From: Arctopsyche grandis
Lineage: Eukaryota > Arthropoda > Insecta > Trichoptera > Hydropsychidae
Length of the DNA: 64,000 nucleotides
Direction of reading: 5' to 3'
Assembly: GCF_051622035.1 (NCBI RefSeq)
Contig: NC_135360.1
Coordinates: forward strand, 28,413,206 to 28,477,205
Below are positions 15,781 through 35,166 of this stretch, in pieces (position 1 is the first letter of the stretch; the number at the start of each line of letters is the position of its first letter). The position numbers and the translations under genes are program-made. The notes beneath the pieces are model-generated. The model was given only the letters and a program-made list of their open reading frames with translations, was not told where the DNA came from and made no database searches.

Positions 15781-17488
<1,708 letters not shown>

Positions 17489-18474: not shown

Positions 18475-20964
18475 TCACACAGCGTTAGGTCTATTTAATG
18501 ATATGTTTTCAGCCAAATTATGTCGTCTTTTCTTCTTCTTTTGAACACCCACCAATGCGGGGCGTCCAGAACTTAATCTTTTGTTACCTCTAGTAACGCC
18601 AGATCGCCTCCTGGCAACTGCTGTTGGTTGAACGTTTATTGGGGCTCTGTAGTGCTTTTTAATTAGTTTTCTTTCTGAAAAGCGATCTGCTATTGCTATG
18701 TAATCTGATGGATTTTTGCATTTTTCAATTGCAGAAAAAATCTTTTTACGATGATATATTGATAAGTTTTTATTTAGTTTATCAAAAGTTTCACGTTCCC
18801 AATTCAAAATTTCCTGATCATCTTGTACAGGGGCAATAATATTGTGAATGCATTCTGAAGTGGAAGAAAGCTGTTCAATAAGAACACTTGAAATTAAAGG
18901 CTGTTGAATGTCAGTCGAAGATGAAGGCGAAGGCTGTTGAATGTCAGTCGAAGATGAAGATGAAAACTGTTCTAAAGTAGGATGTTTTTCTAATGGTTTA
19001 TAAAATTCTTTAGTGTTAGCCTTGTCGCCTAACGCTAATACTGCAATACTGTATCTATTTTCTAGAGTCTTTTCTTTCACATTGTGAAACAAAGCAATGA
19101 CTCCAGCTTGGTGTTTGCACATATTTCCTAGATATCCAGTATTGCAAGTACAACATTCTAATCTAATATCTACTTCGTATACTAAATTTGGAATTTTTTG
19201 ACTGGGGACAATGTAAACGAAACCATTGTCACTCTCAACTATGTTGTCTTTTGTGAGATATGTAATTTTTTTAGTGAAAGGATTTAAAATATGCTTCTTA
19301 GCTGCATTTCTACCGTGTGCGAAATCCATTAACCGGTCCTTATAATATCGGTTCATTTCAACGCAAACATAGCCTATAATGTCTACTGCATTGAAAGCTT
19401 TACATCTATTCAATACAATGTCCTTAAAAATCCGAACAGTTATCTCGGCGTAATTGTTTGTTTGGTTGCCACGTGTAAATTGATTTCGATATGCGAAGCA
19501 CCAACTCTCTCTACGTTCCCAATACTTTTCAACATATTTAATCCACTGTAAATATTTTTGGCATATTCTAGAATTATTTAACTCAATTAAAGCTATATCG
19601 GCTTCAGGTTCGCTACTTGAAATAAGTATATTTTTAAAAAATTTATGTAATATTTTCCTGTCCTCTATTAAAATGCCATGTTTAGCATCCCAGAGCCACC
19701 TCCAAACCGCTTGCGAAATATGAAAAGCACATAACACTAGTTTTGAGTCCTTAAAAATACCACTAAGAGCTGAGCGTTCGGCATTAGAATCATCGGTCAT
19801 AATATACCGAGGATTTATGTCCCCCAAGAAATCTTTTAATAGAGTAAATGCCGATGAATACTCGGCAGTTGTTTGCCCTTTGGTAATAATGACAGCTAAC
19901 GGCACAGCACCTACCACACTTTCTGTTAAGACAAATGTGATAGTGTTTTGCTGCAGATCGCATGATGAAGTCGAGTCGATGAAAATTATGTCCTTTGTTG
20001 ATTGTAAATTTGAAGCTCTTTCCATCAATGGAGTCATAATGCAAACGGTGAATGGATCTTCAATGAATTTAATCTTTGCAGCCCCTACTTTCTCCATCGC
20101 TTCAATAGTGTCATATATTTTCTGTACAAAAAAAATCAAAATTTATTATGTACACAACCTTGTGTCATGTTCATTGCAATAAATTGTATTACCTTGATCA
20201 TTCCAGGAGCAGTTGTATCACCTAAATGATTTTTCTTCCATTTTTCATGCCAATGGGCGACTGTCCTACTTTTGGGGTTGAATGTACCATTCACCATTAA
20301 TTTATCATCATCCCCAAATTCTTCTTTAAGAAATGCAGCATGCTCTCGAATTGCTTCTGCCACACTCATTTTGCTGTGAAAATAGCATTGAAATCTATCA
20401 AATGTGGCAGAAGACGGAGCTAACGAAGTGAGAGCTTCGGCACTCTCCGTATCATGGGAATGTTGTAAATTAATGGTTATTATGGCAGGAAAATTATCCT
20501 AAAATAAACAAAAAAGTAAAAGAAATATAAATAAATTTTTTTGAAATAAAAGTATAAAATACTATGTATTTTTTACCTTCACGTGTTGGTAAAGATATCT
20601 AGTACGTGTATTCATATATTTCACTATAATGTTAATAGACGCTAAACAGTCAAAATTTATTTTTTTCAACTTTTTATTTTTACGGCTGAATTGGCATTTA
20701 TAATATTTTCTGTAAAAAAAAGGCATAAGTAACGCTTAAATTTGTATAGATATAGGTAATAGGAACTTGCCTGCAAACGTATTTTCCGCCATCGCCTCTC
20801 GACTGGGATACAATCCACCTCGAATTCGTAAGTTGGGCATACAAAGAAACCCAGTCGGCACAACCGTCAATGTCGTGGATTTCAGCAAAGATCTTCATCG
20901 ACAACCTATCGTCCGAAATCGAATCCACCTTATACTTATATTTCTCAGGAAATTTGAGGTCCAT
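18475..20964 (-). CDS. MULE transposase with SWIM zinc finger, ~759 aa in four exons
   Basis: Exons on the minus strand: 20964-20771, 20709-20577, 20498-20193 and 20121-18475, together 2280 bp with no internal stop; an upstream in-frame ATG at 20991 would add nine residues. The first intron has a GC donor (CAG|GCAAGT), the rest are GT-AG. The N-terminus carries a DNA-binding-like region with a C/H pattern (FDCLASINI, YLYQH). The centre holds the MULE DDE catalytic fold: FIDSTSS (D260), IMTDDSNAE (D321/D322) and NNYAE (E437). A SWIM finger follows: C535-x-C537-x8-C546-K-H548. The C-terminal tail is Ser-rich, has a short repeat (SSSSTDIQQP twice) and ends basic (KKKKRRH). It probably cuts and pastes the surrounding element. 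The similar Phantom-like insect MULE proteins share this layout. Intact frame suggests recent activity; domestication is an alternative, but the flanking inverted repeats argue for a live element. Confidence 0.85.
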
Positions 20965-24289: not shown

Positions 24290-27200
24290 ATGTTTATTTG
24301 GGATTGGTTCACCGGTGTGTTAGGATATTTAGGTGAGTTAAAAAAAACACATTGTTATCTATTGAAATTACTATATAATTGAAATCTGGCTTACGTTCGT
24401 GTTCAATTAATCAACTATCGTCCGAGCACGTAATTATGATAAGAATGAAGCTTTAATGCTTGTATCGACTTTAGGACTTACGAAGCGAAAACGATACGTA
24501 TTTGCTGGCCTTAAACATTCCGGAAAAAGAATGCTGATTGATCGGCTTCTCAAAGAAGGATTGATTCATCCATTGGATCAGTCCGCCTACGATAACAGCA
24601 TTGAATGCGAAGCAAACTCATCGATCACTCGTGAGCATTTTTTTTTTTGTTTAATTCTTAACGAGAACTAACTGCATGTGTTTGTTTGTTCGTGTAGGAC
24701 TATGGAAGAAATCCGGCAAATTGCTGTTTCTAGGGCTTGATAATGCTGGCAAAACAACACTTCTTCACATGCTTAAAGATGACAGGCTTGCTCAACATGT
24801 GCCAACATTGCATCCCAGTAAGCATCGCTTTTAATCTAACTTATGTACATAGATGTAGATGCATATAACATTGTTTAGAATTATTGCATTATGGATCGAC
24901 TCTTCTTAAGTGGATACCTATACTGAAGGATCTGCGGTTAACATGTAAACGATTTAATATAGATTTTCAAGTAGCTCAGAAGTTAACCCTTTGAATGCTG
25001 AACAACGCCGATCGGCGTTTTGCCAACAAGTCCATGGACCTGAAGAATGCTGATAGGCGGTGTATTTTGAACATGTATAAAGTAAACAAGATTACTACCC
25101 GCTAAGCTTTTCCAGGTAGCATTGAAAAAAAAATGCATTGAACATGGGTCGTGTAATCCATGTCATTCATTTGTCAACGTTTATGAAGACTGGCTTACAG
25201 CGGAATTTCTGAATTTATAACCATAGCAGAATCACCCGATTGAAATCCCTAACTGCCGAATATTTTAGATTGTGAGCATTACTTTTAACCCTTTGCCCGC
25301 GGCAATAAATATAGCGAACAAGCCCTGTACACGGCACCTTTTTCGCGAATTTGGCAATCGAGTTTTCGACCTTAAATACAGATTTTAATATTTACTCAAG
25401 TAACCAGATATGTTAATTAACACATAAAGTATTATTTTAAATAATAAAATACATAATATATCTCGTAGTTTTGACTTAATTGTCAAATAATTATTCTTCA
25501 TACAATTGAGACGTATCGTCGCCATTGGTCAACAGACGTGACGTCACATAAACGAGGTTTCAGTATGGTTCCACAAAAAACTAATTTTGACTGGTATATA
25601 TTCATTTTAAGCAAATTGAATAGATGGCATTCAACTCACAGTAATATATTCAACCAATTTTGAACCTTAACCCATTTGAACCCAGAGCTCGCGTGAAAAC
25701 ACATTTCCCATGTGCACAGGACTATTTTTTCGTTTATTTTCCAAAATCTTTGAGTTATTTCATGGGAAATATTTTTTATAGGATAGGGATTTTGGGTTCA
25801 AAAGTCGTAAAAACAAAATACATGAAGACAAAATAATTAATTATTATGATACGGTACAAAACATTTGTCATGCAATGGAATTTCACAGTTATCACAAGCG
25901 GAAAACGTTTTATTTTTACAGTGTCCACAATTTCTCCTTTTCTGTTTGACCAATATCAAATGTCTTCCAACTTCCTTTTGATTTTGATTAACTTTGCCGG
26001 GTCTGAATGGGACCAATTGTTTTCGTTTTTGACCATAACACTTGCACAACGTCTCTGTTACCTGTCTGATAAATCCTAATTTATCAAGTTTACAACCAAA
26101 ACTTTTGCTAAGAATCCAAGCGTTATTCACAGCTACATCGATGTTCCAAAACAGAATAGGCATGTACCATTTTTTCCCTCTAATACTTATGTTATAGTTA
26201 GAAATATGGTTATACATTTGATTAACCCCACCCATATATTTATTATACATATTTATACTAAATGGTTGATTGATTTCCACCCTACTTTTTTCTTTAACCG
26301 AATATCAGTTTCCAGGGGTGGTAATATGTATGTATATGGAATCCGGAAGTTGAGACTCGTCCCAATTATCAATTTCTTCCCGTATCTCTGCAGTAGTAAA
26401 ATTGCATTCTCTGGAAAAAAATATGTCATTATCCCAAGCAGTCATATACGACTCTGTCGACTTATGATTTTTTTTTTTCAGGAATATGAGATATATAAAC
26501 GCAATTTCTCTTATGCATATTATACAATAAGTCCTACTGTATTAGAAACATAAAGATAAATAAAAAATATGTAAAAATAAAAAAACTTACGTATGTTTTC
26601 TCTTCGACATATCTGCAAGTCGAAAAGCGCTCGATGTTATTGCCTCAAAACTCCAAAAGGAACTGATTTAATTTCGTGTGACTTTCTTAAAATTCATCAC
26701 CAACATCTAACCAAGCGGTTAGATGTTGGTGATGGCATACTATCGTGTAAGTTCATAACTGACCGCGTGGGTTCAAATGGGTTAAAACAGTTGAAATAGG
26801 CGCATACAAGCCTCAAAATCCCGTGCAAAGTTCAGAAATTCTATGGAAGACAATTGATGCAAGTCCAAAAGGTTCAACGACAAAATGTCGCGTCCCCATG
26901 GAAGACAGCCGCGCTATACCCTTGTCGCCCAAAGCTTCCATAGAAGACGGTTAACAGCAATGAAGAAGATGGAACTAGTTTTGGAAAAATACATTCATTA
27001 ATAGACTTCTTTTGCTTATTTTATATTGTTGCAAGATATATTAGAGTCTAAACACACCTTACAAAACTCGAAATCCTCAGCGGTAGTTACCTAGAGTAGT
27101 GTTTGAATTAGCCACAATTTTTATACCTGCTTTCTATTGGATTTCTAAATAATTCTAGTTGTTGAATTGTTGGCGAAATTTTCAGCCCGGCTGGCTTTCA

Positions 27201-27877
27201 ACAATAAAGACGTCAGCACTCAAAGGGTTAATTAACAATAGGAACTGGTTCTGTACGTGAGATTGTATATCCCTGTGTATTGTTTTCACATTCAAGTGCC
27301 GTAGTTTATTGTTTTCTTCGTTACCGTTAGCGATGTGTCGATTCCAATTAATCGTTCGATGTTTGTTTTTCAGCATCTGAAGAGTTGTCAATCGGAAACA
27401 TGCGGTTCACGACGTTCGATCTCGGCGGTCACACGCAAGCACGTCGAGTGTGGAGAGATTACTTCCCCGCTGTAGACGCGATCGTCTTCTTAGTCGATGC
27501 TTGCGATCGTGCCCGATTACCGGAATCCAAAGCCGAACTGGACTCGCTACTTACCGATGAAACGCTCGCCAACTGTCCTGTCCTTATTTTAGGCAATAAA
27601 ATTGATAAAGTTGGAGCAGCTAGCGAAGACGAACTCAGACAGTTCTTCGCCCTTTACCAACAGACGACTGGAAAGGTAAGAGGATTTTTTATTACTACAT
27701 ATTTCTGTGATCAATGTTGAAACGGTTGTTATAATTGTCTTGTTTTTTTTGTGTTTTCAGAGCAAAGTGTCGCGATCGGAGTTGGCCGGTCGTCCGTTGG
27801 AGCTGTTCATGTGTTCTGTTCTTAAAAGACAGGGGTACGGAGAGGGATTCCGTTGGTTGGCACAGTATATAGACTGA
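24290..27877 (+). CDS. Sar1: Sar1, small GTPase of the COPII coat, 193 aa
   Basis: Canonical exons: 24290-24332, 24698-24817, 27374-27675 and 27761-27877, joining to 582 bp, the exact insect Sar1 length of 193 residues. The N-terminus [15 protein letters not shown] is the amphipathic membrane-inserting helix. GTPase motifs are all present: G1 GLDNAGKT (27-34), switch I with TSEELSI (55-61), G3 DLGGH (70-74), G4 NKID (129-132), and the C-terminal block [20 protein letters not shown]. Residue 134 is Val where most relatives have Pro (NKIDKV). Sar1-GTP recruits Sec23/24 and Sec13/31 to ER exit sites. The intron between exons 2 and 3 is swollen to 2.56 kb by nested TTAA elements. An additional open exon-like block lies at 24475-24630 (separate entry). 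Polyadenylation probably uses the AATAAA near 27914. HIBCH faces it tail to tail. Confidence 0.97.
24475..24630 (+). CDS. Sar1: Candidate alternative Sar1 exon with a variant P-loop
   Basis: A 156-bp stop-free block bounded by an acceptor (ACTTTAG) and donor (GTGAGC), phase 1 at both edges, exactly like the canonical G1 exon at 24698-24817. It encodes [20 protein letters not shown]..., which aligns with the canonical [29 protein letters not shown] stands where GLDNAGKT is usual. The Thr that coordinates magnesium in Ras-like GTPases is replaced by Arg, while the P-loop Gly and Lys remain. Used instead of the canonical exon, or added in front of it, it keeps the whole reading frame (plus 12 or plus 52 residues respectively). 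Codon composition looks coding. Whether it is spliced into mRNA cannot be seen here; a decaying duplicate exon is the alternative. Confidence 0.6.
25667..26785 (-). mobile_element. Inner piggyBac element, internally deleted
   Basis: Left end TTAACCCATTTGAACCC at 25667 and right end GGGTTCAAATGGGTTAA at 26785: perfect 17-bp inverted termini including TTAA. It lies inside the element at 24983-27231, hence inserted later. It carries only the two ends of a transposase gene on the minus strand: an N-terminal acidic segment near 26420-26310 ([13 protein letters not shown]) and the C-terminal part at 26280-25837. The central catalytic region is missing, so it depends on a partner for movement. Confidence 0.85.
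25837..26280 (-). pseudogene. piggyBac transposase C-terminal remnant, 147 codons
   Basis: Reads [20 protein letters not shown], then [20 protein letters not shown] and a C-terminal zinc-ring-like cysteine cluster ([20 protein letters not shown]...C). These are the late DDE_Tnp_1_7 block and the Cys-rich tail of piggyBac transposases. The DDD catalytic core is absent upstream, so this is a truncated DNA-transposon gene. In full-length relatives MGGVD is usual; here it is MGGVN. Confidence 0.9.
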
Positions 27878-28593: not shown

Positions 28594-29926
28594 TTAGAAT
28601 TTCAATTCGTTGTCCGCTGGCAGTTTTTTAAAGTAGCTTTCTATGTATTCGTCTGTAACGTCTTTCAAAGTTGCCGGATCCCATTTAGGAGTGTTGTCCT
28701 TGTCGATCAAGAGAGCTCTTACTCCTGGAAATAGAATAGGTATGTTGATTAATTACTCGTTGAAAATGTGTCGTTATTTAGATTTGAAATGGAATTGTGT
28801 TGGTACCTTCGATGAAGTCTTTGTTGACGAGAGCTCGGCAGGCTAATCTGTATTCCATTTGAAGACATTGTGTCAGGTCTAATTGAGACCCGCGCTGCAG
28901 TGCTCGTAAAGTTATTTTCAAGCTTCCTGGTGACATTTTGTGTAGCGTCTGAATTAAAAAAAATTAAATATGTACATGCTGCGTAGATTCATTGCAAGTT
29001 ATTTGATTAACATTCTTACCTGTGTGGTTTTTTTCGCCCATTCAGATTCGTCCTTTTCCAATCTTTCGAAAATTTCTTCTATAGTCGCTGCCGCAAAGCA
29101 ATAAGTGATTTGTTTCATATTTTCTTGCAGTGAAAATTCTCCAGACGGATCATTGAATTTATTCAAAAGATTGTACACTTCGGTCGGATTTTCAGTTCTC
29201 GTTAAAAGCGTTTGAAGCTCCGGCAGTTTACTGCTTTGCACAAAATGAGTAGCTATGCCAGATTTCAATACGTCTTTCCCTTTCAATCTTTGACCTATCA
29301 TGTGAGAGTAATTTTTAATTTATTTATTCCACGGCGGTATTGGGAATATTTAAGGACTTACCTGTCAATCCCAGGTAAAGTCCTAAGTTTCCCGGTAGTC
29401 TCGGTAAGAAATTAGTGCCTCCGACGTCGGGGAATAATCCTATTTGTGTTTCAGGCATCGCAATCATCGTCCTTTCAGTCGCTACTCTGTACTGGCCGTG
29501 TACTGAGAGACCCAAGCCTCCGCCCATCGTGATCCCGTCGATAAATGCTACGTAAGGAATGCTGTAGTTGCCTATGAGTCTATTCAATTTGTACTCTTCT
29601 CTGAAAAAGTCCTCGCCGAGCCTTTCGCCCTTCTTGGCAGCATCTGTGACGGCTCGCACATCTCCACCGGCACAGAATGCCTTCTCTCCGGCCCCCTTGA
29701 TGATCACAAGTTTCTTCTGGGTTTCCCAATTTCTCAACTTTGGATATATTTCATTCACCATGGGAAGATCGAGAGCGTTCAGGGTTTTCGGTCGGTTCAA
29801 TGTCACTATGCCGGTTTTATTCACCGACTCGAATATCACAGAATCAGTCGCCGTAGAGGACATGTTGGTCCTCAGAGACATGTTGGTTAACGCGATTGCA
29901 CATCGCGATGCCTTCAAAGAAAACAT
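28594..29926 (-). CDS. HIBCH: 3-hydroxyisobutyryl-CoA hydrolase, mitochondrial, 370 aa
   Basis: Exons on the minus strand: 29926-29362, 29294-29020, 28948-28807 and 28724-28594, joining to 1113 bp (370 residues plus stop; human HIBCH has 386). The enzyme hydrolyses 3-hydroxyisobutyryl-CoA in valine breakdown in the mitochondrial matrix. Visible are a basic, Ser/Arg-rich N-terminus lacking acids ([13 protein letters not shown]), fitting a transit peptide, and the crotonase-fold motifs: oxyanion-hole [11 protein letters not shown] (84-93) and [11 protein letters not shown]. The catalytic segment [14 protein letters not shown] has E159 and D167, equivalent to human E169 and D177. The C-terminal half ends [17 protein letters not shown] prefer the ATG at 29926 because it directly follows a TATATTTCAG acceptor, implying an upstream non-coding exon; an in-frame ATG at 29959 would lie in that intron. 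All splice sites are standard and no defect is seen. Confidence 0.96.
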
Positions 29927-31094
29927 CTGAAATATATTCGAGTAAAGTAAATTATACATGTGAAAATATGCTAAAATTTAGATAGTCTTTTGCGCACTGT
30001 TGAATTTATAATAAACTTTATTCAACGGTCACAAGATAAAATGGACAAAGTACTTGGTTATTTGTTTGTACGCTTTTATCTAATGTTTTTTCGAGATAAT
30101 GAGTTCATGTAATACGATGGAAGCGAACCTTTATGAAAAAAAATGCGTTCAAGATCAGATTTTTCCAAACTTGATAAGATGATAGCAACTAATGAAAAAA
30201 TCCACAATTTTTTAGTCACGGTTGTGCCGCCTTTTGACCATGACTACAAAAAAAGAGAATGACCACTTTCACCTATTATATGTATATGTAAATAAAAAAC
30301 TTAATAATATAAATAAAAAAGGTTATAATCTATATATAAAAACATATCAAAGCTAATAAGACTGTATGTAGATTTACTCGGAGTAAAAATTTGGGTACAG
30401 TAAACAAAAAAATAGTATACGTAATGTCAACTGATTGGTTACAAGGACATGACATTTTTGTAACACAATACGACTGAATAAATTAATGAATCCGATTTGA
30501 ATGATCAAACTGGCATTCATACCGGAACTATGAAAGAAAATTATGTTTTATATTATGCTCTTGTTTGCATTAGAATGGTTTTTTTGTGTTTCAAAGTTAT
30601 GAAGATCAGTTCACCTATTCTTATTAGCTTTTCAATATACTAAGTCAATAGGAGTTTGGTTCAGTTTAGGCTTATGTTGCAAATTAAGTCTTGACCAACA
30701 TAGAAACGAGTATAGAGGTGAAAACACACTGATGGGAACGGCACGGCACGTCTTCGTGCCTTTCAGAAAAAAAGGGGGGCGTTCACAGTTCATTGTTAAT
30801 TCGTACGACCTTATTATTTCAACAACTTTCTTCTAAATTTCTTCAAATATGGCAATTACCATTATCGATCACTGTCAATACAAGGATAAAATATCGCCGA
30901 AAACACTCCAGGAGGTGATTGATGGGATTTGGGGAGATTTTGAATGTGCATGAAAAAATACATTAAAAATGTACTAATCGTAGACAATCCGATGTAACGT
31001 GAGACTTGCGAGAACCGAGCATGCTGTCACATTCGTGCAATGTGTTGCAACATTGTAAGGACGTAAAATAATTTCTTTAATTTTTTTTTTAATT
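29927..31094. other. Upstream region of HIBCH
   Basis: AT-rich; should contain the HIBCH promoter and first non-coding exon but I cannot place them. No repeat family or other gene recognised. Confidence 0.4.
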
Positions 31095-34205: not shown

Positions 34206-34382
34206 TAAAGTAAGTTTATTAAGTTTCAAGTTTTTAGACCTTTAGAGAACAAAGTAATTAAACGTGAAACATTTTTATTTTATGTTATTTGTGAGACAGC
34301 CCTTGGTATTTACAATAAAATGGTAACGGAAAAAAATGTATCCCAATGTATATATGTACATATGTTTGAAATTTTCAGGAAT

Positions 34383-35166
34383 ATGCATTCACCCATTCGC
34401 ACTCTTCTGAATTGGTATTCAAGAATCAGTCCAAAAAAAGCGCCAAATCCACCCCATTCTCACGTAGTTCAATTGGGTGACCCAATACTACGGCAGATAG
34501 CGAAACCCCTACCCTTACACGACATTAAATCAAACCAAACGAAAAAACTTATTAATAGTTTAAAAGATGTGATGCAATCATACAATTCGATCGGCATATC
34601 TGCACCTCAAATCGGAATAAGTAAACGTATCATAATCTTAGAATTTCATTTGGGGCACAAAGAATTGAATACAAAGTATTTCGAAGAGAAAGAAATGTCC
34701 ATTTTTCCACATACGGTTAGTTGTTTTTAATATTGTATAATTTTTTGAAAAATTGTTTCCTTCATAATTTTATGATTTCAGGTTATAATAAATCCTGTTG
34801 TGAGGCCGATCACTCACAAAAAAGTAATTTCTGAAGAGTCTTGTGAAAGTTTTCGAGGGTTCACAGCTAAAGTTCCTCGCTACCATGAAATTCAATTAAC
34901 TGGTAAAGAATTTTGTATTTGTATATGTTAAAATATTAATTTAATTTCGTTGAACAAATTTTATTATTGTTTCAGGATACAATGAAAATGCCAATGAAAT
35001 CAAATTAAATTTATCTGGTTGGATGGCGAGGGTAGCACAACACGAATTAGATCATTTAGATGCGAAAGTATTCACTGATATAATGATAAAAGAAAGTCTT
35101 TATTGTATGTGTTGGAAAGAAGTTAACGAATATAGTGGAAAAATTACTTTACCTTTTCGACCTTAA
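34383..35166 (+). CDS. PDF: Peptide deformylase, mitochondrial, 214 aa
   Basis: Exons 34383-34715, 34782-34902 and 34976-35166 join to 645 bp. It removes the formyl group from the initiator methionine of proteins made in mitochondria. The N-terminus MHSPIRTLLNWYSRISPKKA is basic and fits a transit peptide. The three PDF motifs are present: motif 1 as G71ISAPQ, motif 2 as ESC132ES, and motif 3 as QH174ELDH178. Cys132, His174 and His178 are the metal ligands, Glu175 the catalytic base. Motif 2 has Ser where the family usually has Gly (EGC), a variation to note but not at a ligand. I start at 34383 because an acceptor-like ATTTTCAG sits just upstream; an in-frame ATG at 34320 would add 21 residues read through that site. 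All introns are short and GT-AG. Confidence 0.95.

Follow-up and report, generated by a model that had tools for sequence, protein, structure and literature searches.

Sar1 is the switch that initiates protein export from the endoplasmic reticulum (ER; COPII). In the sections of the literature drawn on here, the T39N form of Sar1 is described as GDP-locked and dominant negative, blocking ER budding (PMC5102109), and serves as a GDP-restricted control (PMC1262696); dominant-negative Sar1 is a laboratory tool for blocking ER export (PMC5102109). Genes that carry tandemly duplicated exons and splice them exclusively are well established, as set out in sections of two further papers (PMC9741552, PMC5896119): tandem duplicated exon substitution events were reported in 154 D. 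melanogaster genes (PMC9741552), and mutually exclusive exons occur in G-alpha genes, namely GNAO exons 7-8 and, in amphioxus, preGNAI exon 6 and preGNAQ exon 5 (PMC5896119). Neither "GTPase" nor "Sar1" appears in the main text of PMC9741552 or in that of PMC3303723, on insect mutually exclusive exons.

The window, the 64,000-nt stretch of DNA that was analysed, contains a Sar1 gene with four coding exons and, in its first intron, a candidate second P-loop exon (hereafter, the block). The features of the locus are as follows.

24290..24332, plus strand: Sar1 coding exon 1, from the start codon to a phase-1 donor (translation and exon joining; donor U1 duplex -10.6 kcal/mol)
24472..24485, plus strand: 14-nt direct repeat spanning the alternative 3' splice site, 79% identical to 24695-24708
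24475..24630, plus strand: candidate alternative G1 exon (the block), phase 1/1 (translation, similarity, splice-site and decay analyses)
24631..24697, plus strand: 67-nt intron between both P-loop exons (sequence; CTAAC whose branch A lies 27 nt ahead of the G1 exon)
24695..24708, plus strand: partner copy of the 14-nt repeat, spanning the canonical G1 3' splice site (repeat search)
24698..24817, plus strand: canonical Sar1 G1 exon, P-loop GLDNAGKT, phase 1/1 (translation; Pfam Arf 1.9e-13 for the exon alone)
27374..27675, plus strand: Sar1 exon 3, with DLGGH and NKID motifs (translation; whole-genome Sar1 search)
27761..27877, plus strand: last coding exon of Sar1, including the stop codon (translation; whole-genome Sar1 search)

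Joining the four coding exons gave a canonical product of 193 residues, whose sequence identifies it as Sar1 (GTP-binding protein SAR1b is the best PDB match, E 2.3e-94; Pfam Arf 3.3e-62, 209.5 bits). Among the best candidates scored in the whole-genome search, this was the single close Sar1 gene of the genome. A second, much diverged Sar1-type gene with the standard P-loop GIDNAGKT was found at positions 900-1340 of locus L005, at the end of the 82.5-kb contig C49; the region has about 30% G+C, and the gene may not be the animal's own but that of a protist or fungus carried along in the sample.

Several other features were found in the window. An insertion within Sar1 intron 2 (25667-26785) has TTAA ends, 17-base matching inverted termini and, on the minus strand, an open frame that matches the final part of Pfam DDE_Tnp_1_7 (7.1e-9); from its TTAA ends, we take it to be a piggyBac-type element. 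On the minus strand at 18475-20142, an open frame of 555 codons encodes a MULE transposase domain (Pfam 9.9e-8). An enoyl-CoA hydratase/isomerase family gene (29324-29977, minus strand; ECH_2 5.6e-75), presumably resembling 3-hydroxyisobutyryl-CoA hydrolase, and a peptide deformylase gene (34209-34730, plus strand; 9.7e-15) are neighbours of Sar1. An identical 44-codon open stretch occurs three times on the minus strand, at 15809, 16377 and 16935, 558-568 bases apart and near TA-repeat open frames, and these copies are a repeat array.

The block, located between Sar1 exon 1 and the canonical G1 exon, is 156 nt long and stop-free, is preceded by AG and followed by GTGAGC, and has phase 1 at both ends; translation reproduced its borders, phases, coordinates and peptide just as the preliminary description had given them. 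Translated with the base carried from exon 1, it encodes 52 residues, and the other five of the six frames contain stops; the enclosing open frame extends from 24411 to 24668 (86 codons). On exon joining, the block in place of the G1 exon kept the frame and gave a 205-residue product, and the block added to the G1 exon made an in-frame insert of 52 residues, in agreement with the insert proposed earlier. The exon-like block and its frame are direct observations.

The P-loop of the block reads GLKHSGKR versus the canonical GLDNAGKT. Both Gly and the Lys are kept, together with the surrounding hydrophobic pattern; in Sar1 numbering, the substitutions are Arg at 39, Lys at 34 (canonical Asp34), His at 35 and Ser at 36. 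The codon at the block-exon 3 junction encodes Pro, and that at the canonical exon 2/3 junction encodes Thr. The P-loop of the block had been described as mirroring the canonical one: the similarity to the G1 exon does run in the same start register, but the two align only if a gap of one codon is placed ahead of the P-loop. Because the block is 12 codons longer than the canonical G1 exon, its switch-I end is not clearly homologous.

The suggestion that the block is a second, altered P-loop exon gained support, as it looks derived from the Sar1 G1 exon on the basis of a mutual best match, a joint null test and splice borders in the right phase. The homology of the block to the G1 exon appears well supported, and the two have the properties of a tandem exon pair: they are neighbouring homologous exons by the mutual best match and the joint null, with a score that is marginal on its own, and they share equal phase, the frame being kept by either exon. 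We infer that the block arose long ago by tandem duplication of the G1 exon and replaces it in some transcripts, in a mutually exclusive manner, and we put the chances of this reading at about even.

Retention of the block for its protein was compared with neutral decay. Over the 31 aligned codons, 11 residues were identical and 18 had a positive substitution score, at a DNA identity of 51.6%. The identity by codon position (14, 20 and 14 of 31) ran in the expected direction and was not significant (Fisher p 0.39), and dN/dS between the block and the G1 exon was saturated and varied with the method (0.70/1.09 and 0.86/0.63). In codon score, the block reached 0.124, the G1 exon 0.088 and seven nearby coding pieces -0.067 to 0.16 (leave-one-out); a share of 0.0612 among 768 open non-coding stretches equalled or exceeded the block. 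Taken with the decay simulations below, retention of the block for its protein is only moderately supported.

The strongest competing reading, which we consider unlikely, is that the block is a dead, unspliced copy of the G1 exon whose open frame and splice borders have been left by luck. The codon score is not decisive against it, and the Mg-binding and switch residues are gone, as expected under decay. In a simulation of 40 codons with free local alignment, which we deem fairer than one in fixed register, an open frame and a score of at least 41 were retained at the observed identity in 54, 232 and 375 of 10,000 runs under three transition biases; at 60% identity, the counts were 574, 1161 and 1370 of 10,000. 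In contrast, when decay to the same DNA identity was simulated in fixed register, the observed substitution score was reached in only 7 of 20,000 runs, and as many identical residues were kept in 569 of 20,000. Moreover, neither simulation charges for intact splice borders or for the frame through insertions, so that the splice dinucleotides, the frame over the 36-nt length difference and the open 12-codon tail came free of cost.

The splice signals of the two exons are similar. The donors of the block and of the canonical G1 exon both pair weakly with U1 (-4.7 and -4.5 kcal/mol, respectively), whereas those of exon 1 (-10.6 kcal/mol) and exon 3 (-9.5 kcal/mol) are much stronger; of the 3476 GT sites in the window, roughly a tenth have U1 pairing as good as that of the block donor. 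Pyrimidines occupy 10 of 17 acceptor positions for the block and 11 of 17 for the G1 exon, and TTAAT lies upstream of the block, with the branch A 19 nt before it. In the 67-nt intron, the branch-point-like CTAAC leaves about 40 nt between donor and branch point, a distance near the lower limit for insect introns. Mutual exclusion by crowding in this intron is therefore possible but not assured. As candidate RNA pairings that might impose mutual exclusion, the repeat search gave six inverted repeats (10-13 nt), of which several are A/T runs. RNA families at gathering score and tRNAs were absent from the window. A retrocopy of the alternative isoform was also sought and discarded: the DNA and the peptide of the block each matched this site only (one candidate scored each).

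The same short intron bears on a distinctly unlikely alternative, a cassette exon, in which the block and the G1 exon would both be included. The 52 added residues, among them the basic run TKRKR and an altered P-loop segment, would then separate the membrane helix from a normal G domain. The frame is kept on inclusion, and the 67-nt intron has its own donor and, 27 nt ahead of the G1 exon, the CTAAC, so that a single transcript could lose both introns. However, two beta1-P-loop-alpha1 units in tandem would probably be hard to fold, and the homology in exon register favours substitution of one exon by the other.

We regard it as highly improbable that the block is an ordinary intronic open frame that resembles a P-loop by chance, although some of the evidence would fit. 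The local BLOSUM62 score between the block and the G1 exon was 41, little above the best unrelated stretches of the window (up to 37), and the longer exon 3 as query scored 43 with an unrelated stretch. At this score, the block outranked every other non-self match of the G1 exon in a set of 2093 stop-free stretches (20 residues or more), and the two were reciprocal best non-self matches in the window. Scores of at least 41 arose in 4 of 5000 residue shuffles, in 3 of 4000 random introns and in none of 996 window tiles, and the similarity by itself is marginal. At the DNA level, it is weak (score 58, versus a mean of 41.0, an SD of 5.2 and a maximum of 62 in 500 shuffles). An 86-codon frame is not rare either, being found in 171 of 4000 random 365-nt sequences and in 125 of 996 real 365-nt tiles of the window on both strands (68 of 498 on the plus and 57 of 498 on the minus strand).

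The whole-genome searches (475,669,232 bases, 189 contigs), which score only the best candidates from a loose first pass, left the two exons unlinked. The full Sar1 at E up to 1 (30 candidates scored) returned 26 matches, of which four were exons of this gene and the other 22 were 27-46% identical, and the block was absent; the block peptide at E up to 10 (1 candidate scored) returned the block alone, without the G1 exon. Among the open stretches of loci L001-L011, the best matches of the block were the two Sar1-type G1 regions (41 for its own gene and 43 for L005); the scores with L004, L006 and L008-L011 were 29-35, the best stretch in several cases not being the GTPase. Pfam found no Arf in the block alone, and its single match was SRPRB (E 0.097), itself an Arf-like GTPase family, which aligned over the P-loop part. 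The best PDB sequence match of the block was the Slr0869 protein (E 0.33), whose aligned segment holds a P-loop-like GAFSAGKS. In tblastn searches, no relatives were confirmed for the block in viral contigs or for Sar1 in viral and prokaryote contigs; these scans are uninformative on the conservation of the block because not even Sar1 confirmed a relative there.

The reciprocal match argues against chance, and so does the joint test, in which an acceptor, a donor, phase 1/1, an open frame, a length of at least 90 nt, a score of 41 and an alignment whose start lies no further in than residue three of either exon were demanded together. These conditions were satisfied by 0 of 6000 and 0 of 360,000 third-order Markov introns (best score 37 in 360,000); the real odds are weaker than this, because the criteria were fixed after the block had been seen. 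In addition, the 79% identical 14-nt repeat lies over both 3' splice sites, as if the duplication had carried the acceptor along, with the caveats that it is partly the splice consensus itself and that short two-copy repeats often arise by chance. Finally, transcription from inside intron 1 with translation from the in-frame ATG at 24456, six codons ahead of the first codon of the block in an open frame that extends upstream to 24411, would give Sar1 without its membrane helix, but this leaves the AG acceptor and the repeat across it unexplained and is barely credible.

Under the preferred reading, a duplicate used in place of the G1 exon, splicing of exon 1 to the block and of the block to exon 3 would produce a 205-residue Sar1 whose N-terminal membrane helix and entire sequence from exon 3 onwards are intact. 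The swapped protein would carry GLKHSGKR for GLDNAGKT and a rewritten stretch towards switch I, 12 residues longer. The G1 motif is GxxxxGK[ST], and the Thr following the P-loop Lys binds Mg2+; this Thr corresponds to position 39 of mammalian Sar1, as query T34 aligned to PDB chain residue 39, and the same PDB search lists a structure named Sar1bT39N (8e0b). GLKHSGKR departs from the motif, with Arg for Thr. In the joined swapped sequence, at the sequence level only, G1 is altered and the junction Thr is lost, and the rest of the Arf/Sar1 domain is present (Pfam Arf 2.2e-43, 148.2 bits). An AlphaFold model of the block alone, from a two-row alignment, had helices at 14-26 and 32-48 and no strand (mean pLDDT 75.6, pTM 0.49), and a PDB fold search with it was uninformative, yielding nothing at E 0.001 or better.

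With residue roles and partners taken from general background, we infer the following biochemical steps. The P-loop Lys would stay, and the Mg2+-binding Thr would become Arg and Asp34 would become Lys; where exons 2 and 3 join, Pro would take the place of Thr. Mg2+ binding and normal nucleotide cycling would then be lost, giving a pseudoGTPase unable to cycle, which would sit on the ER membrane and perhaps also on the exchange factor Sec12, though not on Sec23, and COPII budding would be damped. By analogy with T39N, the swapped protein is perhaps a COPII brake; an inert or differently wired product is also possible. We therefore propose only tentatively that splicing swaps the P-loop of Sar1 and thereby yields a membrane-bound pseudoGTPase, a naturally occurring equivalent of T39N, by which COPII is restrained or redirected and which exon choice would adjust. 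If this is true, the animal would make its own dominant-negative-type Sar1 by exon choice, and secretory flux could be set by splicing; a duplicated P-loop exon, with an active and a dead form, could then be sought in other small GTPases.

Among the matches listed in the open-licence literature, there was no report of an alternative P-loop exon of Sar1, and two peptide strings of the block were absent from the open-licence literature searched; the swapped isoform may already be in genome annotation databases. Like the tandem duplicated exon substitutions, the block and the G1 exon are neighbouring homologous same-phase exons in one gene, and their swap is frame-neutral. Terms for ion channels, plasma membrane and muscle are prominent among the known tandem exon pairs in the sections cited (PMC9741552), whereas exclusion in Sar1 is here only predicted. 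The G-alpha genes share with this locus an exon duplication within a GTPase gene (PMC5896119). However, the GNAO exon pair maps to receptor-coupling regions, and the cited sections name no duplicated P-loop exon and leave the preGNAS exon unnamed (PMC5896119). Sar1 T39N is changed at the same residue as the swapped isoform, but it has Asn, whereas the block gives Arg together with changes at Asp34 and near switch I. Because of the Arg and these further changes, a nucleotide-free state would be as likely as a GDP-locked one. As for pseudoGTPases, a term used here as in the cited part of PMC5593906, p190RhoGAP pG1/pG2, CENP-M and Rnd are fixed domains or proteins, whereas the pseudoGTPase of Sar1 would arise by exon choice in the gene of an active GTPase.
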